DNA from: an uncultured Desulfobacteraceae bacterium
GTDB lineage: Bacteria > Desulfobacterota > Desulfobacteria > Desulfobacterales > Desulfatirhabdiaceae
Assembly: GCA_903839535.1 (NCBI GenBank)
Contig: CAIMCT010000254.1
Location: forward strand, 1-37,159
Reading direction: 5' to 3'
DNA: 37,159 bases
The position numbers were made by a program, and so were the translations under genes. Below are positions 2,230 through 30,592 of this stretch, piece by piece (position 1 is the first letter of the stretch; each line of letters opens with the position of its first letter). Under the pieces are notes generated by a model that did no database searches, was not told where the DNA came from, and worked only from the letters and a program-made list of their open reading frames with translations.

Positions 2230-4161
2230 ATGGCACTTACCATCAATACGAACATTGCATCTCTGAATGCACAAAAAAATCTGTCAAAGACGCAGAATGC
2301 CCTCAATAAATCCATAGGAAGGCTTTCTTCCGGGCTTCGCATTAACAGCGCAAAAGATGATGCGGCAGGCATGGCCATATCCAACCGCTTTACCACCCAG
2401 ATTCGGGGACTTGACCAGGCCGTTCGAAACGCCAATGACGGTATATCCCTGTTGCAAACCTCTGAAGGCGCCATGCAGGAGACTACCTCGATTCTGCAGC
2501 GGATGCGGGAGCTTGCAGTGCAGGCATCCAACGATACCAACTCGGCCTCGGACCGTGCATCGCTGCAAGGTGAGATGGATCAGCTATATTCTGAGATTGA
2601 CCGGATTGCCGGATCTACAAAGTTTAATGGAATCAGCCTTGTGGATGGATCCGGAGGCGCCCTGAACTTTCAGATCGGCAGCGATTCCGGCCAGTCCATT
2701 TCGGTGACATTAAAAAGTATCAAGACCAAGGATCTCAATTTGAACGGGTACTCAAAGCTTGGCGATCTTAACAGCGGCCGGATAGGCGATCTGGGTGGTC
2801 CCACTGCAACCGGATTGTCGATTAACGGCTTTGCCATTGGCGAGGCTGCAACAACAGCCACAGCAAAGGACGGCGCTACTGCTATCAATCTTGAAACCGG
2901 TAAAACCGGCGTGACCGCAGCTGCTTACAACACTTATAGGGGGGCAGGCAACGTCAGTGGCATTGTCAGTGGCCTGCAGATCGGTACAACGACTGGCAAT
3001 ATGGCTACCATAGCAGATTCTGGAAGCATGACGGACCTGGTCAAGAATATCAACCGTGATGCGGCAGGAGTTACAGCTACATTGGCCGGTGACGGATCCA
3101 TTACGCTGAGCAATGACACAGGCGAAGATATTGTGGTTGGTGGAGTTACAACAAACTCGGGGCTTACGGGAGGTTTATTAGGCGCCAATGCTACATATAA
3201 GGGCTACATTTCCCTGACGGATGATGCCAATGAAGCCATTGCGATTACCGCAACACCGGGCGGAACGGCCGCGAATGTTAATCTATGGGGATTTAACGTC
3301 TCTACTGGATCAACAAATATCACCAGCCAGGCAGTTTCAAGCAGTCCGATGGCTGCCGGCGATCTGGCGATAAATGGGGTTTCCGTGGGTGCTTCCACAG
3401 GGTCCAGCGCCGGCGATAAGGCCGCTGCGATTAACCTGGTAAAGTTATCGTCCGGTGTAACGGCCACTGCGACAACCCAGGTCAAATATACTGTCAATAT
3501 GGCAAATATTGCAACTGCGGTAGCAGATGGTCTTAGCATCAATGGTTCGCAAGTGGATTTATCAGGACCAGCCTCAACCATGGACAGGGTGATTTCTCAG
3601 ATCAATTTGCTCGGGGGGGGAGTTGTGGCCAGTGCCGATACAGGGGGACAACTGGTATTAACCGCTTCTTCCGGGCTGGATATTACAATTACGGGTACGG
3701 ATGCAGTTAACATAATGGGCGCTGCTGCGACAAATGTAACGCATGGAACTATTTCGCTGGTTTCAGATACAGGCGCTGATGTCAAAATTTCCGGTAATAA
3801 CGAAGCAGTTGCTGGTTTTACCGAACAGGGTGGAAGTTCTGAAGCCGTCGGATCAGGTTTAAACGTAATGACGATGCAAAATGCCAACAACGCCATAGAT
3901 CGGATTGATGATGCGATCGACAAAGTTTCTGAAAACCGGGCTGAACTGGGTGCAGTTCAAAACCGGCTGGATTCCACTATTTCCAATCTGCAGAATGCTT
4001 CCGAGAACTTCTCTGCCGCCAACGGTCGGCTGATGGATGCGGATTTTGCCAAGGAAACCGCAGATATGAGCAAACAGCAGATACTGATGCAAGCTGGTGT
4101 GGCCATGTTGGCTCAGGCCAAGCAGCTCCCGCAGCAGGTACTGCAATTGTTGCAGGCATAA
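2230..4161 (+). CDS. fliC: Flagellin 1 (filament subunit)
   Basis: This 643-residue flagellin has the conserved helical N-terminal D0/D1 region (about 1-170: SLNAQ.NL, RLSSGLRINSAKDDAAGMAI, LLQTSEG, LQRMRELAVQ) and C-terminal D1/D0 region (about 555-643: GAVQNRLDSTISNL, ending LPQQVLQLLQA). The middle 380 residues are Gly/Ala/Thr/Ser-rich, with flagellin_IN-type repeats. The Ser/Thr-rich surface would suit the glycosyltransferase encoded just upstream. AAGGAG at 2216-2221 supports the ATG. It is closely related to flagellin 2, with near-identical 3' ends at DNA level. Odd features: an uninterrupted run of eight G at 3613-3620 inside the coding region, and no recognisable sigma-28 promoter in the 97 bp upstream, which is mostly occupied by a palindrome. 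Subunits are exported by the FlhA/FlhB apparatus with FliS as chaperone. Confidence 0.96.
   Translation: MALTINTNIASLNAQKNLSKTQNALNKSIGRLSSGLRINSAKDDAAGMAISNRFTTQIRGLDQAVRNANDGISLLQTSEGAMQETTSILQRMRELAVQASNDTNSASDRASLQGEMDQLYSEIDRIAGSTKFNGISLVDGSGGALNFQIGSDSGQSISVTLKSIKTKDLNLNGYSKLGDLNSGRIGDLGGPTATGLSINGFAIGEAATTATAKDGATAINLETGKTGVTAAAYNTYRGAGNVSGIVSGLQIGTTTGNMATIADSGSMTDLVKNINRDAAGVTATLAGDGSITLSNDTGEDIVVGGVTTNSGLTGGLLGANATYKGYISLTDDANEAIAITATPGGTAANVNLWGFNVSTGSTNITSQAVSSSPMAAGDLAINGVSVGASTGSSAGDKAAAINLVKLSSGVTATATTQVKYTVNMANIATAVADGLSINGSQVDLSGPASTMDRVISQINLLGGGVVASADTGGQLVLTASSGLDITITGTDAVNIMGAAATNVTHGTISLVSDTGADVKISGNNEAVAGFTEQGGSSEAVGSGLNVMTMQNANNAIDRIDDAIDKVSENRAELGAVQNRLDSTISNLQNASENFSAANGRLMDADFAKETADMSKQQILMQAGVAMLAQAKQLPQQVLQLLQA
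3613..3620 (+). repeat. G8 homopolymer inside flagellin 1
   Basis: Eight consecutive G lie in frame in the Gly-Gly-Gly codons of a flagellin_IN repeat (LLGGGV). The matching place in flagellin 2 reads as mixed codons (LGNGV), so the run is not required by the protein. Runs of this length are candidates for slipped-strand length change, which would truncate flagellin 1. Confidence 0.75.
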
Positions 4162-4246: not shown

Positions 4247-4840
4247 TCATATTTCCTCCGCCCCTTTAAATACCCGTTTTAGATCGATACGAAGTTCGGG
4301 AAGGATGCCAACCGTTATGACATCTGATTCGGTATATACATCAGGCCTTCCATAACGACCATCCGGATTCAACTGATAGACCATGACCAGCCGATCCAGG
4401 GGCTGCACGATCCAGTATTCGGTCACGCCGAACCGTTCATAGAGTTCACGCTTGATGATGTGGTCTTTGGAAGCGGTTGAAGGGGAGATAATTTCGATGA
4501 TCCAGTCCGGTGCGCCAAGGCAACCGTGGTTATCCAGTTTGGAGTGGTCGCATACCACCAGCAGGTCCGGCTGGACCACATTAAAGGCATTTTTATCGGA
4601 AATTCCAGCTTCTTCCAGCCGCACGTCAAATGGTGAATCAAACACCTCACAGGTTTTGTCCTGCAGATAATGCTCAATTTGGTATTCCACTCTTCTTGAG
4701 ACCGTCTGGTGGAGTCGGTTTGGCGCGGGCGACATCAGCAAGGGTTCGCCATCGATCAACTCCCATCGCTGGTCATCTGTCCAGGTCAAATAATCCATGT
4801 ATGAAAACCGTTCTTTTTCAGAGTGTTGTGCAATTGTCAT
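4247..4840 (-). CDS. Uma2-family (DUF820) putative restriction-endonuclease-fold protein
   Basis: The 197-residue protein has the Uma2 layout: RWELIDGEPLLM near the N terminus, then PDLLVVCD, APDWIIEIISPSTASKDHIIKRELYERFGVTEYWIV, and a C-terminal strand region. The pattern PD...(D/E)xxxEIxSPS...K resembles the PD-(D/E)xK nuclease core, but cellular roles are unknown for most members; they are abundant in cyanobacteria and in some sulfate reducers and are often near mobile DNA. The ATG at 4838-4840 follows a good GGAGGT site (4846-4851 on the + strand). It is the only convincing gene on the minus strand and sits convergently behind flagellin 1, splitting the flagellin pair. It looks like inserted cargo, not a flagellar gene. 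Confidence 0.88.
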   Translation of the reverse strand: MTIAQHSEKERFSYMDYLTWTDDQRWELIDGEPLLMSPAPNRLHQTVSRRVEYQIEHYLQDKTCEVFDSPFDVRLEEAGISDKNAFNVVQPDLLVVCDHSKLDNHGCLGAPDWIIEIISPSTASKDHIIKRELYERFGVTEYWIVQPLDRLVMVYQLNPDGRYGRPDVYTESDVITVGILPELRIDLKRVFKGAEEI

Positions 4841-5219: not shown

Positions 5220-7193
5220 ATGGCTATGACAGTTAATACCAATATGGCGTCTTTGAATGCTCAGCGCAATCTGGCCAAGACGCAAGGCTTGTTGAACAAA
5301 TCATTGGGGCGGCTTTCATCTGGTCTTCGGATCAACAGTGCAAAAGATGACGCTGCAGGGATGGCGATTTCCAATCGGTTTACAGCCCAAATCAGGGGTG
5401 TAGATCAGGCAGTTCGAAACGCCAACGACGGTATATCAATGCTTCAAACCTCAGAAGGCGGGATGCAGGAAGTCACCACGATTTTACAGCGGATGCGGGA
5501 AATTGCAGTGCAAGGCTCGAATGACACCAATTCGGCTTCTGACCGTGCATCTCTTCAGGGTGAAATGGATCAGCTCTTCAAAGAAATTGACCGGATTTCC
5601 GGAGCCACGCAATTTAACGGCATCGGCCTTCTGGATGGAACCGGAGGAACCAAGAGTCTTCAGATTGGTGCCAATTCCGGACAGACCATATCCGTTTCGT
5701 TAAGGAGTACAAAAACCGGTGCTTTGAATCTGAACGGGTATTCCAAACTTGGTGAGTTGAACAGTGGCAGGGTGGGCACAACCTCCGCTGCGGCTGGATC
5801 AGGATTGTCGATCAATGGTACGGCGATTGCCGGAGCCGCAGCGTCAACGGCAGCGGCTGGAGCAACGGCTATCAATCTTTCAGCCGGCGCTACAGGCGTA
5901 ACCGCAACTGCCTACAACACATACAAGGGAACCGGCGGCGCCAGTGGTATTGTATCAGGCCTGACGATCGGTACGACGACTGCCAATATGAGTCTTATAG
6001 CAGATTCTGGAAGCATGACGGAACTGGTCAATAATATCAACAGGGATGCTGCCGGGGTTACAGCTACATTGAACAAGGATGGATCCATTACGCTGAGTAA
6101 TGATACAGGTGAAAACATTGCAATTGGCGGAACATTCGCAAACACGGGGCTGAAGGCTGGGGAACGCACAGGCTACATTGCCCTGACCGACGATGCCAAT
6201 CAAGCCATTTCGATTACCGCCACTACGATCAAAGAAAGCCTCGCGGCGGGCAGACCAATCACGTCGGACTTTACTGTCGCTGATGTGGAAAAATGGGGAC
6301 TTAACATCTCCACTGGATCAACAAACACCACCGGCGCAGCAGTTACAAGCAATGCGATGGCTGCCGGCGATCTGGTGCTAAATGGGGTGTCCGTGGGTGC
6401 GTCCACGGGGGCTACCGCCGGTGATAAGGCGTTTGCGATTAATCTGGTGAAGGGTGAGTCCGGTGTGTCGGCATCTGCGAGGACCGAGGTCAAATATACG
6501 GTCGATATGACAGCGGTTGCAACAGCAGGATCAGAAAGCATTACTATCAATGGTTCTGCTGTGGCAGGTTTTGGGGTAACCGCCACAACCATGGATAATG
6601 TGGTTTCCGCGATTAAAGCCCTCGGAAATGGAGTTGATGCCAGCGTTGAGGCGGATACTGGAAAACTGGTTATATCCTCTGTTTCCGGGCTGGATATTAA
6701 AATTGAGGGAGCCGCCGCGGGTGCCGTGTTCGGCCAATCGTCAACATCTTTCACAACCACTGGAACCATCTCGCTGGTTTCAGACACAGGCGCTGATATC
6801 AAAATTGCCGGCTCTGCCGCGAGCGCCGGTGCCAGCGCATTGGCTGCTGGATTTGTCGAGCAGGGGGGAAGCTCCGAAGCTATCGGACAAGGCCTCAGCG
6901 TTGAAAACTTGGCCAATGCCAACAATGCCATTAACAGGATTGATGATGCCTTGGACAAGGTTGCGATTAACCGGAGCGAGCTGGGTGCAGTCCAAAACCG
7001 GCTGGACTCCACCATCTCCAACCTGCAGAATGCTTCTGAGAACTTTTCTGCAGCCAACGGTCGAACATTAGATGCGGATTTTGCCAAAGAAACCGCAGAT
7101 ATGAGCAAACAGCAGATACTGATGCAGGCCGGCGTTGCCATGTTGGCTCAGGCCAAGCAGCTCCCGCAGCAAGTACTGCAACTGCTTCAGTAG
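5220..7193 (+). CDS. fliC: Flagellin 2 (filament subunit)
   Basis: This 657-residue flagellin paralogue shares the D0/D1 ends of flagellin 1 (N-terminal RLSSGLRINSAKDDAAGMAI and LQRMREIAVQ, C-terminal GAVQNRLDSTISNL to LPQQVLQLLQ). Its central Gly/Ala/Thr-rich region has the same flagellin_IN-like modules but diverges in sequence and is slightly longer. The ATG follows AAGGAGG (5204-5210). The last ~120 bp are nearly identical in DNA to the end of flagellin 1, which fits gene duplication with possible gene conversion. Four sigma-28-type promoter matches lie upstream, so this is probably the major, late-expressed filament subunit. A UUCG stem-loop follows the stop, and the next genes are cap, chaperone and flaG. 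Confidence 0.96.
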   Translation: MAMTVNTNMASLNAQRNLAKTQGLLNKSLGRLSSGLRINSAKDDAAGMAISNRFTAQIRGVDQAVRNANDGISMLQTSEGGMQEVTTILQRMREIAVQGSNDTNSASDRASLQGEMDQLFKEIDRISGATQFNGIGLLDGTGGTKSLQIGANSGQTISVSLRSTKTGALNLNGYSKLGELNSGRVGTTSAAAGSGLSINGTAIAGAAASTAAAGATAINLSAGATGVTATAYNTYKGTGGASGIVSGLTIGTTTANMSLIADSGSMTELVNNINRDAAGVTATLNKDGSITLSNDTGENIAIGGTFANTGLKAGERTGYIALTDDANQAISITATTIKESLAAGRPITSDFTVADVEKWGLNISTGSTNTTGAAVTSNAMAAGDLVLNGVSVGASTGATAGDKAFAINLVKGESGVSASARTEVKYTVDMTAVATAGSESITINGSAVAGFGVTATTMDNVVSAIKALGNGVDASVEADTGKLVISSVSGLDIKIEGAAAGAVFGQSSTSFTTTGTISLVSDTGADIKIAGSAASAGASALAAGFVEQGGSSEAIGQGLSVENLANANNAINRIDDALDKVAINRSELGAVQNRLDSTISNLQNASENFSAANGRTLDADFAKETADMSKQQILMQAGVAMLAQAKQLPQQVLQLLQ

Positions 7194-19455: not shown

Positions 19456-20496
19456 ATGGATACAACTAATTTACCAGGAGCATTAAAAGTTGCGGTTCTC
19501 ATTCACTCAATGGGAGAAGAAGTTTCCAGGGATATTCTGGCCCGTATGGGGAATACTGAAAGAAAACTTATACAGGAACACATGTCTCAGATCGATTCGA
19601 TCTCGCCGGAAGTGGTGGAGAAAATCTCTCAGGAATTTGCGATGCTGGTAGAAAGAATGAGACAGCGTAACGCATTGGGACAGATTCTGGCTGAAACCAA
19701 AGACAATGAAGAATCCCAATCTGAACCCCTTCAGACACCGGAAATGCTCCAGGAATCCATTCCGGACGAATCTGATCCGGATACTGAGCCGATCGAAGAG
19801 GAGTCCACCTTAAAAGCGCTCCAATCCATTGATCCAGACCAGCTTGTTGAAATGATTAAAGATGAACATCCACAAACCATTGCTGTGATTGTTGTTCATC
19901 TTAAACCAGAGTCTGGCAGCGCTGTTTTATCCAAACTTCCGGATAATCTGAAAGTGGAAGTGGCCATACGAATCGCCAGGCTCGATAAGGTGTTGTCCGG
20001 CATGATCAATGAGATTGACCGGTTGTTTGAAGAACTCATGAAAAAGAAAAAAACATCCGCCATGCATAAAACCGGAGGTGTCAGCCATCTTGCCGAGTTG
20101 CTGAATATGGCGGAAGGGTCTGCGGGAGAGCAGATATTGAGTGAGATTGAAGAAGTCAATCCTGATCTTGCCGCCCAGATCAAGCAGATGATGTTTGTGT
20201 TTGAAGATCTGGTTCTGGTGGATGACAAGGGAATGCAGAAGGTTCTTCGGCGGGTTGAGACACCAAAACTGGCTCTGGCGCTTAAGGGCGCTTCTGAAGA
20301 AGTCAAACATAAGATATTCAAGAATATGTCTGAGCGTGCCGGTGTAATGCTGAAAGAAGAGATAGATTCAATTGGCGCAGTTCGGATGAAGGATGTTGAA
20401 GAAGCTCAGCAAAGCATAACCAAAATCATCCAGGAGTTGGAAGCCAAAAGCGAAATAGTCATCAGTGGCCGGAAAGGGGGGGATTATATTGCATAA
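19456..20496 (+). CDS. fliG: Flagellar motor switch protein FliG with acidic linker
   Basis: The 346-residue protein has a short N-terminal domain (1-75), an acidic Ser/Pro/Glu-rich linker (about 80-118, QSEPLQTPEM.., DESDPDTEPIEEES), then the middle domain with EHPQT (DEHPQTIAVIVVHLKP) and the C-terminal torque domain (FVFEDLVLVDDKGMQKVLRRVE, ALKGASEEVKHKIFKNMSERAG). FliG couples stator to rotor on the C ring. In E. coli FliG the N-terminal domain continues through a conserved LG.ERA...L helix; here that part seems replaced by the acidic linker, which is unusual because the region binds FliF. ATG 19456 is preferred over an in-frame TTG at 19441 (GGAG at 19443-19446). A G7 run lies at the very end (20476-20482). 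Confidence 0.95.
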   Translation: MDTTNLPGALKVAVLIHSMGEEVSRDILARMGNTERKLIQEHMSQIDSISPEVVEKISQEFAMLVERMRQRNALGQILAETKDNEESQSEPLQTPEMLQESIPDESDPDTEPIEEESTLKALQSIDPDQLVEMIKDEHPQTIAVIVVHLKPESGSAVLSKLPDNLKVEVAIRIARLDKVLSGMINEIDRLFEELMKKKKTSAMHKTGGVSHLAELLNMAEGSAGEQILSEIEEVNPDLAAQIKQMMFVFEDLVLVDDKGMQKVLRRVETPKLALALKGASEEVKHKIFKNMSERAGVMLKEEIDSIGAVRMKDVEEAQQSITKIIQELEAKSEIVISGRKGGDYIA

Positions 20497-23229: not shown

Positions 23230-25785
23230 ATGCTAAATGAAATCATCAGTGTAACCAATTCCGGCGACATGTTTTCCGGGATCGGCAGATCTCAATTGTT
23301 AAAGGACGGGGCTTTTGTCGGCCTGGGTCAATTTACTGATGATATTGACCCTCAGCAAAAGAATTTTATGTCGGTTCTTTCCCAGTTTGGTAAAGGAGCC
23401 ATTCAGGTAATGCCTGATGAATCTAAAAATGCCAATTCGAAACTTGCTGAAGGAAGATTGCCGGATGAGGTGAACGCAGACAATGCTTCTTCCGGCAAAC
23501 CAAAAGGAAAGCAAGGCAAGGACTGCTGTGTCGCCAAACGACTACCATCTGTATATCCGGATACACTTGGCCTTGTCATGGGATTCCTGTCCATACCGGA
23601 TATGCCGCAACCTGAACTGGCTGTGAATACTGCTTTTAATACTCTTAGCTCGGAAAGTGAAGAAAATCCTGCTTCTGGTTTGATCGCAGGTGGATCAACG
23701 CCGGAAACGATGAAGAATCAGCAATTGCCCGACGAGAGCATTATTCTGACAGGTATCCCGCAAATGCCCATTCCTGATCTTTCAGGCCCAGATATCGCCC
23801 AGGCTGCTCAAATTGAGATACCGCCGAAGTTACAAGGGCAGCAGCAACCTGATACATCATCTGTAAAAGGTACATCAACAAACAGTCCACAGATAAACAG
23901 TCCGGCAATAAAAGGAACTGCTCAGATTTTACAGGGCGGTGAGGCATCAGCGCAGCAGCAGGGGAACCCAGATTCGGTAACGGTTTCAAACCCGGTTTTT
24001 TCAAGGCTGGATTCGGCGCAATTCTTTAAAGGGGAGCTGACACCGAAGTTGCAGGGGCAACGTCAGCCCGATACATCATCTGTAAAAGGTACATCAATAA
24101 ACAGTACGGCGATAAACAGTCCGGCAATAAAAGGTACGGCTCAGGTTTTACAGGGCAGTGATGTGGCAGCGCAGCAGCAGGAGAACCCCAATTCGGTAAC
24201 GGTTTCAGACCCGGTTTTTTCAAGGCTGGATTCTGCGCAATTCTTTAAAGGGGATTTAACGCCGAAGTTGCAGGAGCAACGTCAACCCGATACATCATCT
24301 GTAAAAGGTACATCAACAAACGGTACGGCGATAAACAGTCCGGCAATAAAAGGTACGGCTCAGGTTTTACAGGGCGGGGAAGTGCCACTGCAGCAGCAGA
24401 ACCCAGATTCGGTAACGGTTTCAGACCCGATTTTTTCAAGGATAGATTCTGCGCAATTCTTTAGTGGGGAGCTAACATCGAAGTTGCAGGGGCAACGTCA
24501 ACCCGATACATTATCTGTGAAAAGTGCATCAACAAACGGTACGGCGATAAACAGTCCGGCAATAAAAGGTACGGCTCAGGTTTTACAGGGCGGGGAAGCG
24601 CCAGCGCAGCAGCAGAACCCAGATTCGCTAACGGTTTCAGACCCGCTTTTTTCAAGGATAGATTCTGCGCAATTCTTTAGTGGGGGGCTGACACCAAAGT
24701 TACAGAGGCAGCGGCAGCCCGATACATCATCTGCAAAAGGTGCATCAACAAATAGCCAGGCGATAAAAGGTACATCAATAAACAGTCCGGCAATAAAAGG
24801 TACGCCTCAGGTTTTACAGAGCGGTGAAGCGCCAGCGCAGCAGCAGGAGAACACCGTTTCGGTAACGGCTTCAGATCCGGTTTTTTCAAAGTCGGATACG
24901 ATTCAGCCCAATCCTTTGGCCGGAAAAGAGAATCCGGGTGCGAGAGGGAATATAACGCAAGAGAACTCCGCAGACAGTGTCTTTCAGAATACTTCTGAGC
25001 GCGAGAAGGCTCCAGTTGTACAGAAGAGTAGCTCTGCTGTTCGGCCACAGGAAGTAAAGGCGAAATCCGGTTCATTTCATCAAACCGGAAATGCCATCGA
25101 AACCGATGGGGTAGCATCACCTTTAGCCACTGCTTCAAATGCTGATAGCGTCGGAACGATGGGTTCGTTCAAGTCTGCAAGCTCTTTGGATACGATCACT
25201 GGCAGTGATGATGGCCCCCAACTTCAGCCCACGGAACCAGCTTCCGGAGGTTCGGTTGCGAATTTCGCCAGGGAAGGTCAGACGGAAAAAACATCATCGG
25301 TGAATTCATCTTCAAATGAGCCCCGACCTGTAAACCAGTCATTTCATGCGGAAGTAGTGAAGCAAGTGGTGGAAAAAACGGCTTCCACTTTAAAATCCGG
25401 GCAGTCTGAGATGCAGATTGATTTGAAACCCGAATCTCTGGGACATTTAAGGCTGCATGTATCCATGGAGAATCAGCAGGTGACTGTCAAAATTTTGGCG
25501 GAAAATACCCAAGTGAAAGAGATGATTGAACGTCAGGCATCTTTGATCAAAAGCGAGCTACAGCACCAGGGCATCAAGGTTGATGCTGTAAATGTGGACT
25601 TGTTGATGTCAGGTGGAACGGATTTTGCATCTTCCCATCATGAGGAGACAGCATTCAAGCAGGCACGACATGAACCTGCATACAGCAAGGGTCAGGAAAG
25701 TGCCGGTGAAAGCGGATTCAAGGAACCGGATTCGCCAAGTCAAGCCAACAGCAGAGGCGGAAATCTTGTTAATTATTTTGCGTAA
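23230..25785 (+). CDS. fliK: Flagellar hook-length control protein FliK with five long internal repeats
   Basis: At 851 residues this FliK is about twice the length of the E. coli protein. Residues ~199-557 are five near-identical repeats of 72-73 residues (QRQPDTSSVKGT..., NSPAIKGTAQVLQGG, SVTVSDPVFSR.DSAQFF). The C-terminal export-switch domain lies at about 715-800 (MQIDLKPESLGHLRLHV, VKILAENTQVKEMIERQ). FliK is a secreted molecular ruler: its N-terminal length sets hook length and its C-terminal domain acts on FlhB to stop hook export. The repeats lengthen the ruler region, so copy number could change hook length. It precedes flgD and the hook gene, as is usual. Confidence 0.93.
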   Translation: MLNEIISVTNSGDMFSGIGRSQLLKDGAFVGLGQFTDDIDPQQKNFMSVLSQFGKGAIQVMPDESKNANSKLAEGRLPDEVNADNASSGKPKGKQGKDCCVAKRLPSVYPDTLGLVMGFLSIPDMPQPELAVNTAFNTLSSESEENPASGLIAGGSTPETMKNQQLPDESIILTGIPQMPIPDLSGPDIAQAAQIEIPPKLQGQQQPDTSSVKGTSTNSPQINSPAIKGTAQILQGGEASAQQQGNPDSVTVSNPVFSRLDSAQFFKGELTPKLQGQRQPDTSSVKGTSINSTAINSPAIKGTAQVLQGSDVAAQQQENPNSVTVSDPVFSRLDSAQFFKGDLTPKLQEQRQPDTSSVKGTSTNGTAINSPAIKGTAQVLQGGEVPLQQQNPDSVTVSDPIFSRIDSAQFFSGELTSKLQGQRQPDTLSVKSASTNGTAINSPAIKGTAQVLQGGEAPAQQQNPDSLTVSDPLFSRIDSAQFFSGGLTPKLQRQRQPDTSSAKGASTNSQAIKGTSINSPAIKGTPQVLQSGEAPAQQQENTVSVTASDPVFSKSDTIQPNPLAGKENPGARGNITQENSADSVFQNTSEREKAPVVQKSSSAVRPQEVKAKSGSFHQTGNAIETDGVASPLATASNADSVGTMGSFKSASSLDTITGSDDGPQLQPTEPASGGSVANFAREGQTEKTSSVNSSSNEPRPVNQSFHAEVVKQVVEKTASTLKSGQSEMQIDLKPESLGHLRLHVSMENQQVTVKILAENTQVKEMIERQASLIKSELQHQGIKVDAVNVDLLMSGGTDFASSHHEETAFKQARHEPAYSKGQESAGESGFKEPDSPSQANSRGGNLVNYFA
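23824..24905 (+). repeat. Five-copy 216/219-bp tandem repeat in fliK
   Basis: Units begin at 23824, 24043, 24262, 24478 and 24694 (spacing 219, 219, 216, 216), each opening with a C-C-G/T-C-G-A-A-G-type sequence encoding PKLQ or SKLQ. Units 2-4 are very similar; the first and last diverge more. All length steps keep the reading frame. Confidence 0.9.
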
Positions 25786-26688: not shown

Positions 26689-27534
26689 ATGATCGGCTCA
26701 TTATATTCAGGAATAACTGGTTTAAACGCCGCGACACAGCGTATGGGAGTTATCGGCGACAATATCGCCAATGTCAATACCACGGCATATAAGGGTTCGG
26801 AGCTTTCGTTCGAGAGCTTGATCATGCAATCTGTTGGCGGATATACAGGTATGGAAATTGGCGGCGGGGTAATGTTGGGTGATCTCAGCTATGATTGGAA
26901 TCAGGGAACCATGCAAAAAACATCAAATCCCTTAGACATGGCTATTACTGGTTCTGGATTCTTTCAGGTCAAGGATGCTGCTGGCAAAACCTATTATACC
27001 CGTGACGGTGAGTTCAGCGTTGATCCAACAAGCGGAAAACTTGTTACTTCTTCGGGTATGGTGGTTCAGGGATGTGTCTATACCGATCCGCCTCCTGTTC
27101 CGCCTGTCGCTCCGACTGTCGCCGACATAGTTGTCCCGCCTAGCGCTACTCCTCCGCCAGCATATCAAAGTGTTTCAGTTGATGCTAAGGGCGTATATAC
27201 GTTTACGGACAACACCACTGACCCACCGACCACGGACCCAGCTTTAAGGCTTCAGATTGTGATTTTTGATGTTACGGATAAAGCTTCTATGGCTAAAATG
27301 AATAATAACCTTTACACAAAAACTACACCCGATGCGACAGATCCGCTGACAATCGGAGTTCCGGGTACATTTGGTTTGGGTTCGGTCGAGCCGGGATCAC
27401 TTGAAATGTCCAACGTCGATATCGCCAAGGAATTTGTCAACATGATTACAGCTCAGCGTGCGTTTTCAGCCAGTTCCAAGGTCATCACGACCAGCGATGA
27501 AATTCTGCAAGAGCTGATCAATATGAAGCGGTAA
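26689..27534 (+). CDS. flgE: Short flagellar hook protein FlgE (hook/rod family)
   Basis: The 281-residue protein has the hook/rod N-terminal motif (LYSGITGLNAATQRMGVIGDNIANVNTTAYKG), the FlgE/F/G core (GTMQKTSNPLDMAITGSGFFQV, YYTRDGEFSVD) and the C-terminal LEMSNVDIAKEFVNMITAQRAFSASSKVITTSDEILQELINMKR typical of hooks. Location after fliK-flgD points to the hook, not to FlgF/FlgG. It is much shorter than many hooks (about 400 residues in enterics), more like the ~264-residue Bacillus hook. In place of outer domains it has a Pro-rich insert at about 129-160 (DPPPVPPVAPT, VVPPSATPPPAY), with its only cysteine (C129) at the insert start. AAGGAGG precedes the ATG. Confidence 0.85.
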   Translation: MIGSLYSGITGLNAATQRMGVIGDNIANVNTTAYKGSELSFESLIMQSVGGYTGMEIGGGVMLGDLSYDWNQGTMQKTSNPLDMAITGSGFFQVKDAAGKTYYTRDGEFSVDPTSGKLVTSSGMVVQGCVYTDPPPVPPVAPTVADIVVPPSATPPPAYQSVSVDAKGVYTFTDNTTDPPTTDPALRLQIVIFDVTDKASMAKMNNNLYTKTTPDATDPLTIGVPGTFGLGSVEPGSLEMSNVDIAKEFVNMITAQRAFSASSKVITTSDEILQELINMKR

Positions 27535-27608: not shown

Positions 27609-27842
27609 ATGATCAAGGTAACCAGATTAAACAATATTGAAATGATCGTGAACGCGGAAAGGATTCAATCGCTTCAGTCCACACCTGATACGTTGATCAC
27701 CTTTACAAACAAGGACCGGCTGATGGTCAGGGAGCCTGTTGAAGAATTATCCAGAAGAATATTGGATTACCGGCGGATGGTCTTTCAGAATCAAGTTTCA
27801 GCAGTAGATATTCTTCAGCAGTTTCCGGATGTCCTTCATTGA
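27609..27842 (+). CDS. flbD: FlbD/SwrD family protein
   Basis: The 77-residue protein matches the FlbD/SwrD family (MIKVTRLNNIEMIVNAERIQSLQSTPDTLITFTNKDRLMVREPVEEL). In Bacillus subtilis SwrD raises flagellar torque, probably through the stators. Its gene typically lies between flgE and motA or fliL, as here, 24 bp before motA. A ribosome-binding site AAGGAG precedes the ATG. This is unrelated to the Caulobacter transcription factor also called FlbD. Confidence 0.9.
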   Translation: MIKVTRLNNIEMIVNAERIQSLQSTPDTLITFTNKDRLMVREPVEELSRRILDYRRMVFQNQVSAVDILQQFPDVLH

Positions 27843-27866: not shown

Positions 27867-28664
27867 ATGGATATCACGACACTGATGGGTATCCTGGTTT
27901 CCGGTGTGCTGGTGGTCAGCGCTATTCTGATGGGCGGGCCTGGAATATGGTTTCTGGATTACCCATCCCTGATGATTGTTATCGGCGGAACCATGGGCGC
28001 AACGCTTATCGCTTATCCGATTTCTGAAGTGATGAGCGTTTTTGGCATTGCCAGAAATGTATTTTTACACCGCTATCAATCCCCTACAACGCTGATTCCC
28101 ATAATTGTTCAATTCGCCAAAAAGGCGCGGACTGAAGGTATTCTTTCATTTGAACCTCAACTGAAAAAGCTGAAAAACCCGTTTCTTGTCAAGGGAATTC
28201 AGATGGCGATTGACGGGATGGAATCCAGCGCCATTGAAGATGTGTTGACCACGGAAATCGCTTATGTCGGAGAACGCCATAAAATCGGGGCGGAGATATT
28301 TTCGACAATGGGAGCTTATGCACCATCAATGGGAATGATGGGGACCCTTATCGGTCTGGTGCAGATGCTAAGACAAATGCATGATCCCAGCCTGATTGGC
28401 GGGCCAATGGCGCTTGCCCTGCTGACAACGTTTTATGGCTCCGTCCTTTCAAACCTGTTGTTTAATCCAATTGCCGGAAAACTGAGAACCCGAAGCAAGC
28501 AGGAGATACTGGTCAAACAGATGATTCTGGAAGGGATTCTGGCGATTCAGGCAGGAGATAACCATCGGATTGTCGAGCAAAAACTGAAAGCCTTTATCTC
28601 ACCCAAAATTCTTCAAAAATTATCATACGGCAACGTAAGGTCGTGGCATTCGGCAGAGCTATGA
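27867..28664 (+). CDS. motA: Flagellar stator protein MotA/PomA
   Basis: The 265-residue protein has four membrane segments and the MotA signatures: IVIGGTMGATLIAYP near the N terminus, and the TM3-TM4 region GAYAPSMGMMGTLIGLVQMLRQM...GPMALALLTTFYGSVLSNLLFNPIAGKL. The LLTTFYG form and overall shape resemble PomA/MotP (sodium-type) more than E. coli MotA; ion type is inference. It forms the pentameric ring around the MotB dimer in the inner membrane. Its stop overlaps the first motB start (ATGA), so stator subunits are co-translated. Confidence 0.94.
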   Translation: MDITTLMGILVSGVLVVSAILMGGPGIWFLDYPSLMIVIGGTMGATLIAYPISEVMSVFGIARNVFLHRYQSPTTLIPIIVQFAKKARTEGILSFEPQLKKLKNPFLVKGIQMAIDGMESSAIEDVLTTEIAYVGERHKIGAEIFSTMGAYAPSMGMMGTLIGLVQMLRQMHDPSLIGGPMALALLTTFYGSVLSNLLFNPIAGKLRTRSKQEILVKQMILEGILAIQAGDNHRIVEQKLKAFISPKILQKLSYGNVRSWHSAEL

Positions 28665-29395
28665 ACCCCAATTCAAGACACGGCATATCGAGCGATCCTC
28701 TCCCTGTTTCCAGTAATGATTGGGCTGTTGTATATGCTGGTTTTATCATCATGCTGCTGTGCTTTTTTATCGTGCTGTGTTCGTACTCCGTGACAGACAT
28801 ATCTAAAATGGCTCTGGCAGCCAAATCATTTTCAACGGCTGTAAGTGTTTTTACCGGTGGGCAGCGTTTTGAATCCGGTGAAGTTGCTTTGCCGGTTGCT
28901 CCTGATATGGTAAGTGTTGACAGTGAGCTTGCAGGTATATATAGCAATGTTCAAGTAGTGACCAGCAGCCTGGGGATGGAAAATGAGATTAAAGTGTCGA
29001 TTTCCGAGAAAGGACTTATCCTTCAACTTTCCGACAAAATTTTGTTTGAAGCGGGTCAGGCCGATATTCTGCCGGAATCCAGAAGGCTGATTGAACATCT
29101 GGGAACGATCATTGCAAATCATCCTTCATACAGTCTTCGCATTGCAGGGCATACGGACAATTCACCCATCCGCACTATCCGGTATCCATCCAACTGGGAG
29201 TTGTCCACGTCACGGGCCGTAAATGTTGCTCGGTATCTTCTGGACAAACGCATTATTGCTGCTGATAGATTGCTGGCGGCAGGCTTTGGCGAATACAAAC
29301 CCCTTTTCCCCAATGATACTCCGGAAAACAGAGCCAAAAATCGCCGGGTCGAGCTCCTTTTTTTTCGAAATGAAATTAAAAAGGTTGTTCAATGA
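28661..29395 (+). CDS. motB: MotB-like stator protein lacking the ion-binding aspartate (paralogue 1)
   Basis: The 244-residue product has one membrane helix (about 21-44, DWAVVYAGFIIMLLCFFIVLCS) and a C-terminal OmpA-like peptidoglycan-binding domain (RIAGHTDNSPIR, WELSTSRAVNVARYLL, AGFGEYKPLFPNDTPENRAKNRRVEL). In MotB/PomB the sequence W-x5-D carries the proton or sodium; here the aligned residue is G27 (W21-x5-G27). It therefore cannot carry the ion in the usual way. It overlaps both motA (ATGA) and the second motB (ATGA), which keeps the aspartate. ATG 28661 is preferred over GTG 28643 because of that overlap. A hetero-dimeric stator or an inactive modulator are the main options. Confidence 0.9.
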   Translation: MNPNSRHGISSDPLPVSSNDWAVVYAGFIIMLLCFFIVLCSYSVTDISKMALAAKSFSTAVSVFTGGQRFESGEVALPVAPDMVSVDSELAGIYSNVQVVTSSLGMENEIKVSISEKGLILQLSDKILFEAGQADILPESRRLIEHLGTIIANHPSYSLRIAGHTDNSPIRTIRYPSNWELSTSRAVNVARYLLDKRIIAADRLLAAGFGEYKPLFPNDTPENRAKNRRVELLFFRNEIKKVVQ

Positions 29396-30129
29396 GAGAA
29401 AATAGATGTAGAATCAACATCGAAAACGAACATGAAGCTCCAAATCCTCCAGGATGGTTGATAACTTTCAATGACTTGATTACCCTTCTGATGGTTTTCT
29501 TTGTACTCTTGTTTGCAATGGGCAACATCAATACCCAGAAATCCCAAAAGCTTGTCGGGTCAATTCAGGACGCAGGGGTGCTGCTGGAAGGGAGAAAAGT
29601 CGGTGTTAAGATTGTCAGGCCAATTCAGTCGACGGAGCCAGCGACTCAAGAAGTTTCTGGAGATTCTTCAAGTACGGTTTCCCAGCTTTCAGAAGTGTCC
29701 AGGAATGCTATTGATGATCTGGCCAATAATCCTGAAATCACGGTTATTAAGACCCCTAAGGGGTTGTTTATTACCCTTTCAGACGGTATTCTGTTTCAAA
29801 GCGGCCTTTCAGAACTGCGGCCTGAAGGATATCCGGTTCTGAATAAAATCATCCAGGTCCTTCAGCAGAGCAATGGACTTGATGTTCGTATTGAGGGGCA
29901 CACCGATAATGTGGCGATTCGAAGTGGACGGTTTTCATCAAATTGGGATCTTTCGATTGTCAGGGCTGTGCATGTTGTCAAATATTTTATAGATGCCGGA
30001 AAAATTGCTCCCCAGCGGCTTTCAGCAGTGGGTTATGGCGAATCCAAGCCGCTTTACCCGAATGACAGCCCGGCAAACAGGGAGAAAAACCGTCGCGTCG
30101 AGATTATTCTGGAGTTGATGGATTCATAA
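29392..30129 (+). CDS. motB: Flagellar stator protein MotB/PomB (paralogue 2, canonical)
   Basis: The 245-residue protein has a MotB N terminus with W22-x5-D28 (PGWLITFNDLITLLMVFFVLLFA), so the essential ion-carrying aspartate is present. A periplasmic linker and an OmpA-like peptidoglycan-binding domain follow (RIEGHTDNVAIRSGRFSSNWDLSIVRAVHVVKYF, GYGESKPLYPNDSPANREKNRRVEI). It starts by ATGA overlap with paralogue 1. With MotA it forms the torque-generating unit anchored to the cell wall. FliL follows directly. Confidence 0.95.
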   Translation: MRENRCRINIENEHEAPNPPGWLITFNDLITLLMVFFVLLFAMGNINTQKSQKLVGSIQDAGVLLEGRKVGVKIVRPIQSTEPATQEVSGDSSSTVSQLSEVSRNAIDDLANNPEITVIKTPKGLFITLSDGILFQSGLSELRPEGYPVLNKIIQVLQQSNGLDVRIEGHTDNVAIRSGRFSSNWDLSIVRAVHVVKYFIDAGKIAPQRLSAVGYGESKPLYPNDSPANREKNRRVEIILELMDS

Positions 30130-30130
30130 T

Positions 30131-30592
30131 ATGTCAAAGAAAAATATCATTATTATTGCAGGGGTTTTGCTGATCGTTTTAGCTGTCATTGGAGGTGGCT
30201 TTTTTATGCTGTGGCAGAAACTTTCCGCGCTTGACAAAACGCAAACAGAGGAGTCCAGCAAATCTTCTGAAAAAACCAGCCACGGCGGCATGGGCCCTGT
30301 TTTCGCTCTTGATTCCTTTATTGTAAACCTGTCGGACCAGGGCGGAAAACGGTACCTGAGAGTTACCATGGGTCTTGAACTGGGAGATCCGAAACTTGCT
30401 GAAGAGCTGACGAAAAGACTTCCGCAAGTTCGGGACAGCATTTTGATGACCCTTCCTTCCCGGAAGGTGGACGAGCTTCAAACCGCTGAAGGAAAGAGTG
30501 CGCTGCGCTCCGAAATTGTCTCCAACCTGAATGAATTGCTGGGTAAAGAGACTGTGAAAAAAATATATATTACTGAATTTGTTATACAATAA
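30131..30592 (+). CDS. fliL: Flagellar basal body-associated protein FliL
   Basis: The 153-residue protein has one N-terminal membrane helix (about 5-30) and a periplasmic SPFH-like domain with FliL pattern (FALDSFIVNLSDQGGKRYLRVTMGLELGD, VRDSILMTLPSRKVDELQT, LRSEIVSNLNELLG..TVKKIYITEFVIQ). FliL supports stator function at high load by encircling MotB. It begins one base after the second motB gene, in keeping with a stator module. Confidence 0.95.
   Translation: MSKKNIIIIAGVLLIVLAVIGGGFFMLWQKLSALDKTQTEESSKSSEKTSHGGMGPVFALDSFIVNLSDQGGKRYLRVTMGLELGDPKLAEELTKRLPQVRDSILMTLPSRKVDELQTAEGKSALRSEIVSNLNELLGKETVKKIYITEFVIQ

Follow-up and report, generated by a model that had tools for sequence, protein, structure and literature searches.

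motA and two motB genes within a flagellar gene cluster

The window, by which we mean the whole stretch of 37,159 nucleotides analysed, is a flagellar gene cluster. It contains flagellins, a fliF-fliG-fliH-fliI-fliK run, flgD, a gene for a hook-type protein and a small FlbD-like open reading frame (ORF), followed in order by motA, two motB genes (motB1 and motB2, with products B1 and B2), fliL, fliM, fliN, fliO, fliP, fliQ and fliR. We note that FliG (20143-20463) was identified by a profile match, and that the other flagellar names in the window were given by recognition of sequence. The small ORF, which resembles FlbD/SwrD, is also found upstream of motA in a genus relative. The features considered here are as follows.

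27609-27842, forward strand: small FlbD/SwrD-like ORF, 77 amino acids, directly upstream of motA, read from sequence
27867-28664, forward strand: motA, 265 amino acids, PomA/MotP-like (Pfam MotA_ExbB, E 8e-27; best NCBIfam models MotP and PomA)
28661-29395, forward strand: motB1, the MotB paralogue without the ion-carrying Asp, 244 amino acids, starting inside motA via ATGA; member of a conserved clade of 52
28718-28795, forward strand: B1 transmembrane helix, residues 20-45 (AlphaFold helix 20-45; MotB_plug match over residues 19-60)
28739-28741, forward strand: Gly27 codon (GGT), at the ion-carrying Asp position of B1 by gapless alignment with solved MotBs
29042-29344, forward strand: B1 OmpA-like peptidoglycan-binding domain, residues 128-228 (Pfam OmpA, E 6.5e-17)
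29392-30129, forward strand: motB2, the Asp-bearing MotB, 245 amino acids, starting inside motB1 via ATGA; member of a conserved group of 50
29473-29475, forward strand: Asp28 codon (GAC), the ion-carrying residue of B2, which is Asp in 50 of 50 B2 partners
29791-30093, forward strand: B2 OmpA-like peptidoglycan-binding domain, residues 134-234 (Pfam OmpA, E 1e-20)
30131-30592, forward strand: fliL, directly downstream of motB2, opening the fliL-fliM-fliN-fliO-fliP-fliQ-fliR run; named by sequence recognition from the ORFs

All three stator genes are intact in the window. The coordinates agree with the first-pass annotation, which had described ATGA overlaps at both the motA/motB1 and motB1/motB2 junctions. 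The 4-nucleotide overlap of start and stop between motB1 and motB2 was present in 22 of 50 pairs, an arrangement that would suit the synthesis of B1 and B2 in equal amounts.

Several other genes in the cluster are worth noting. An ORF with TPR and OGT-like glycosyltransferase regions (81-2132) adjoins the flagellins and is a candidate flagellin glycosyltransferase, and two large flagellin genes (2230-4161 and 5220-7193) flank a Uma2-like ORF on the opposite strand (4247-4840, minus strand). The FliK-like protein (23230-25785, 851 amino acids) carries about five long repeats of ~75 residues (TPKLQGQ..PDTSSVKG...SPAIKGTAQVLQGG...FSRLDSAQFFKGEL), which are unusual in a hook-length ruler. A short hook/basal-body protein of 281 amino acids with FlgE-like ends (26689-27534) occupies the place where a full-length flgE would be expected.

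Domains and ion-carrying position of the two MotB paralogues

Both paralogues have the MotB layout of a membrane helix and an OmpA-like domain that had been read from the sequence, with matches above cut-off to the Pfam models MotB_plug (PF13677) and OmpA (PF00691). The AlphaFold model of B1 (mean pLDDT 75.8) contains helices at residues 20-45 and 47-64 and an OmpA fold, closest to the periplasmic domains of MotS, DVU_2228 and PomB. The motifs of this domain (GHTD, SNWELSxxRA and NRRVE) are intact and invariant or nearly so, and peptidoglycan binding by B1 is predicted from them. We also considered B1 as a relative of ExbD/TolR and rejected this, as it matches MotB in both Pfam and the PDB. 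Judged by sequence, B1 is a MotB homologue that does not have the status of an ion-carrying MotB, with the Asp present in none of 52 B1s. B2 has the features of MotB/PomB, namely D28, T31 and an OmpA domain. The window MotA has those of MotA/PomA, with a MotA_ExbB domain and the Thr and Pro residues of TM3 and TM4. Its P153, T160, T187, T188 and P201 (window numbering) show no variation among the 49 MotAs that precede a B1, and by these residues MotA is ion-competent. Its best NCBIfam models, MotP and PomA, hint at sodium as the ion.

At the residue that carries the ion, the two paralogues differ. The helix of B1 reads W21-AVVYA-G27-F and that of B2 reads W22-LITFN-D28-L. In gapless alignments, the structural Asp of the MotBs in 6ysf and 6ysl (which we take to be from Clostridium sporogenes and Bacillus subtilis, respectively) falls on G27 of B1, and the contrast between G27 and D28 noted in the first-pass annotation is confirmed by this alignment and by the codons. 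Across the clade, the residue at the ion site is not always glycine. In the 51 B1s that could be read at this position, the residue is Gly (32), Ser (12), Ala (6) or Asn (1). The sole Asn was found in a B1 with the helix WMLTFCNL (L127/L167, G544:C87); Asn is a laboratory mimic of protonated Asp.

The first-pass annotation was likewise right that Asp had given way to Gly, but the difference is not in this residue alone, since the whole ion-binding face (positions -3, 0 and +3 relative to the Asp) is remodelled in B1. Position -3 is Thr or Ser in all 50 B2s and all 31 other MotBs, and position +3 is Thr in 47 of 50 B2s (T31 in the window) and 30 of 31 other MotBs. In B1, by comparison, -3 is Val, Ile, Leu or Met (47/51) and +3 is Leu, Ile, Met or Val (51/51). 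The loss of Thr/Ser at both positions alongside the Asp points to specialization rather than one accident, and suggests that B1 is adapted to something. The FF core of the helix (+8, +9) is retained, with F at +9 in all 51 B1s. Overall, the B1 helix seems to have kept its packing environment and to have given up the handling of ions.

Distribution, inheritance and selection of the pair

To find relatives of B1, we used profile searches within the phylum (Desulfobacterota/Thermodesulfobacteriota), drawing genomes from the genus, the order and the phylum, with one draw of 389 genomes within the order. The surveyed genomes are probably mostly metagenome assemblies, and more divergent B1s, or B1s without a B2, could have been missed by this kind of search. 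A scan with two short peptide patterns yielded five close relatives only, and the profile searches gave the real extent of 52 distinct Asp-less B1s across 25 family-level groups. The Asp-less paralogue beside motA, for which a survey of related genomes had been proposed, is thus not a lone case. Genus-level relatives are 58-86% identical to the window B1 and keep WA(V/I)VYAGF. The 35 other MotBs recovered by the survey all kept the Asp.

Linkage of B1 to its neighbours was strict. An Asp-bearing B2 lies directly downstream in 50 of 50 cases where the contig continues, and the two B1s without an adjacent B2 (in G095 and G474) are both at a contig edge, with the B2 of G095 opening another contig. 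Apart from these contig ends, none of the 52 surveyed B1s was without a B2. Wherever motA was on the same contig, it was directly upstream of B1, and no B1 was found in any place other than between motA and B2. On the evidence of these sequences, a pair of MotB genes beside motA, one of them permanently without the ion-carrying residue, is found in the window and also in many distant relatives.

In a tree of 137 MotBs, the B1s form one clade (SH-aLRT 98) with all other MotBs outside it, and they remain a single group when the helix is left out (SH-aLRT 89); the B2s group together with weak support. Distances among B1s mirror those among their partner B2s (r 0.85, with 0 of 1000 permutations as high), which together with the single B1 clade argues for co-inheritance of the two genes. 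The simplest reading would be a single old duplication and a single loss of the Asp, after which both genes were passed on jointly. We note that the mirrored trees have no force as an argument for direct pairing, as any co-inherited pair is expected to agree in this way, even if its members are non-touching parts of one motor.

Substitution rates indicate that B1 is under purifying selection, with dN/dS of 0.13, 0.20 and 0.13 when the window B1 is compared with those of three genus relatives (0.15 and 0.18 for B2). The possibility that the Gly form was pseudogene-like, on which the first-pass annotation had made its reading depend, gives way here to an old conserved clade. Mean pairwise identity across this clade is 52% in the helix, 48% in the OmpA domain and 26% in the linker, and the helix value compares with 10% after shuffling of residues within the helix. 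Such conservation would exceed the need of a plain membrane anchor. The distance from the transmembrane helix to the OmpA domain differs in length between B1 and B2 and is only weakly correlated between them (r 0.24).

The tandem was in some genomes the only source of MotB. Among 51 tandem genomes, three that are single contigs (G264, G300 and G355) contain FliG and no MotB_plug match other than the tandem; estimated completeness is 84% for G264 and 92% for G300 despite one contig each. Several drafts more than 90% complete (e.g. G582, G402 and G587) also have no MotB_plug match besides the tandem. Since the three single-contig genomes have no other MotB, this operon has to be capable of powering the motor there, unless their flagella are dead. 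The genome from which the window comes contains a second motA-motB pair (G000:C539:3461-7183; L022 and L078), which has a proton-type helix (WKVAYADF) and adjoins a flagellin/FlgL-like gene. This organism therefore has two stator types, and the tandem is not its only one.

Stator composition and comparison with known motors

In known stators, a MotA pentamer surrounds a MotB dimer, and ten ions pass per turn, the product of five MotAs and two sites (PMC9389320). As ions per turn are given by outer times inner subunits, a count of 5 instead of 10 would require a new model, as stated in a review of 5:2 motors (PMC9389320). The reading that we prefer, with modest confidence, is that the stator encoded here is an obligate heterodimer, MotA5-B1-B2, in which D28 of B2 is the sole ion-binding Asp. 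A mixed dimer with one active Asp was one of two options raised in the first-pass annotation, the other being a non-conducting MotB that anchors or regulates, and it is the better supported of the two; we infer it, as we do the place of B1 inside MotA, the pairing of B1 with B2 and the ion count. A MotA5-B1-B1 unit could not conduct, and conserved 1:1 co-production is for this reason easiest to understand as pairing of B1 with B2. Pairing is also the reading favoured by how strictly the genes are linked, by conservation of the B1 helix and by the 1:1 layout of the two motB genes. In related complexes the inner two chains hold unequal positions even if identical (PMC12965293), so separate genes for each chain are not far-fetched. 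Asp-replaced MotBs are dominant negative, or reported so, in E. coli, Salmonella and Pseudomonas (PMC12288467), which suggests that mixed dimers of ordinary MotB probably work poorly and that B1 would need adaptation.

In a heterodimer of this kind, B1 would take up the other axle position within the MotA ring. Its helix there would be inert, with an ion-binding face (-3, 0, +3) that has turned hydrophobic or small, and its OmpA domain would still tie the stator to peptidoglycan. The MotA ring would pass one active site rather than two, and a MotA turn would use ~5 ions in 72-degree cycles compared with 10 ions in 36-degree steps. Ion cost and maximum torque per stator could both be lower, and the two anchors would have a built-in asymmetry. 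We are evenly divided on the further proposition that this is a natural 5:1 rotary ion motor, with one site, ~5 ions per MotA turn and about half the maximum torque per stator, which has become established in many lineages of the phylum and in some species is the only stator.

The main alternative is that MotA5-B2-B2 is an ordinary conducting stator and that a B1 dimer lies outside the MotA ring as an accessory that, like other periplasmic supports of stators, is bound to peptidoglycan and acts as a scaffold or in placement. B2 alone has all that a MotB requires, B1 has an intact peptidoglycan-binding domain, the two proteins are unlike in the length between helix and OmpA domain, and the dominant negative behaviour of Asp-less MotBs in model species (PMC12288467) would also be consistent with this arrangement. 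We nevertheless consider it rather unlikely, as B1 keeps the MotB_plug profile and the FF core, its helix is conserved above its folded domain, which a plain anchor would not need, and its position is fixed between motA and B2. Free dimerization could instead make B1 a throttle, with weak or inert B1-B2 and B1-B1 units diluting or reserving the active B2-B2 units and torque set by the B1:B2 ratio. Mixed pools are expected from co-translation, and it has been reported that Asp-less stators are able to occupy motors in Salmonella (PMC12288467). This reading seems improbable to us, however, given that one inert unit per active one would be costly over 25 families, that fixed gene order and overlap leave the ratio little freedom, and that the clade-wide remodelling at -3 and +3 suggests a specific role.

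Two further explanations fit the data poorly. Small polar residues (C, S and T) recur at +7, +13 and +14 of B1 and could be taken as another ion-binding group replacing the Asp, in which case the stator would keep two sites. We regard this as very improbable, as no acidic residue lies between -4 and +16 of the Asp position in any of 51 B1 helices, which also answers the earlier concern that B1 might align with a substitute acidic residue in the ion pathway. Glu occurs at -5 in 21 of 51 B1s, not including that of the window, and the acidic residue at +19 is common to B2 and other MotBs. The idea that B1 is a duplicate in decay, or arose from faulty assembly, has the missing Asp alone in its favour and is almost certainly wrong: 52 intact copies, dN/dS of 0.13-0.20, the single old clade and the intact motifs of B1 rule it out.

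A conserved one-site stator, if true, would be a natural experiment on the need for both sites and on ions per turn, as 5:2 motor models all assume two identical, alternating ion sites. It would also bear on a division of labour between the two MotB chains beside the rotor, and would indicate that a rotary motor can change gear in evolution through the inactivation of one of its sites. In a B1/B2 system, either chain can be tagged or mutated without the other, which is impossible in homodimers. What the pair suggests is a rotary motor driven through a single ion site, compared with two in known motors.

The canonical MotA5MotB2 and PomA5PomB2 stators of E. coli, Campylobacter jejuni, Clostridium sporogenes and Vibrio resemble the system described here in having a MotA with all ion-path residues and a MotB with the Asp, the +3 Thr and an OmpA domain, as in B2; B1 has the same layout, and the genes are in the main flagellar cluster. 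They differ in having two identical MotBs and two Asps, whereas here one of two MotB kinds is without the ion site. A rotary motor in which a paralogue or repeat has lost its carboxylate, changing the ions per turn, is found in the V-ATPase c subunits, although these are an unrelated family and form a ring rather than an axle. In the literature searched, which had preprints and most subscription papers outside its scope, we found neither a heterodimeric MotB nor an Asp-less MotB described as a conserved component of a stator. The pairing of an Asp-less with an Asp-bearing MotB is likely, although not certain, to be new.

Other pairs of MotB-like genes beside a single motA differ from this one. 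Aquifex aeolicus shares the order motA-motB1-motB2, but its two MotBs share 97% identity over their N-terminal and transmembrane regions and show one Gly/Ser difference, at residue 20. Fused to the E. coli periplasmic part, either of these regions gave some motility with MotA (PMC4525482). B1 is ruled out as a duplicate of the Aquifex type, as its helix departs from that of B2 at the Asp position and at -3 and +3. The Myxococcus AglRQS gliding motor likewise combines one MotA homologue with two MotB/TolR-like partners, but AglQ and AglS are both described with a conserved Asp (PMC9389320) and have ExbD/TolR domains and no OmpA domain. Within the same order as the window, one genome (G051; L096, G051:C479) also has motA followed by two motB genes, here with the Asp in both copies (WMATYGD). 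These copies are sisters in the tree, fall in neither the B1 nor the B2 group, and apparently stem from a separate duplication.
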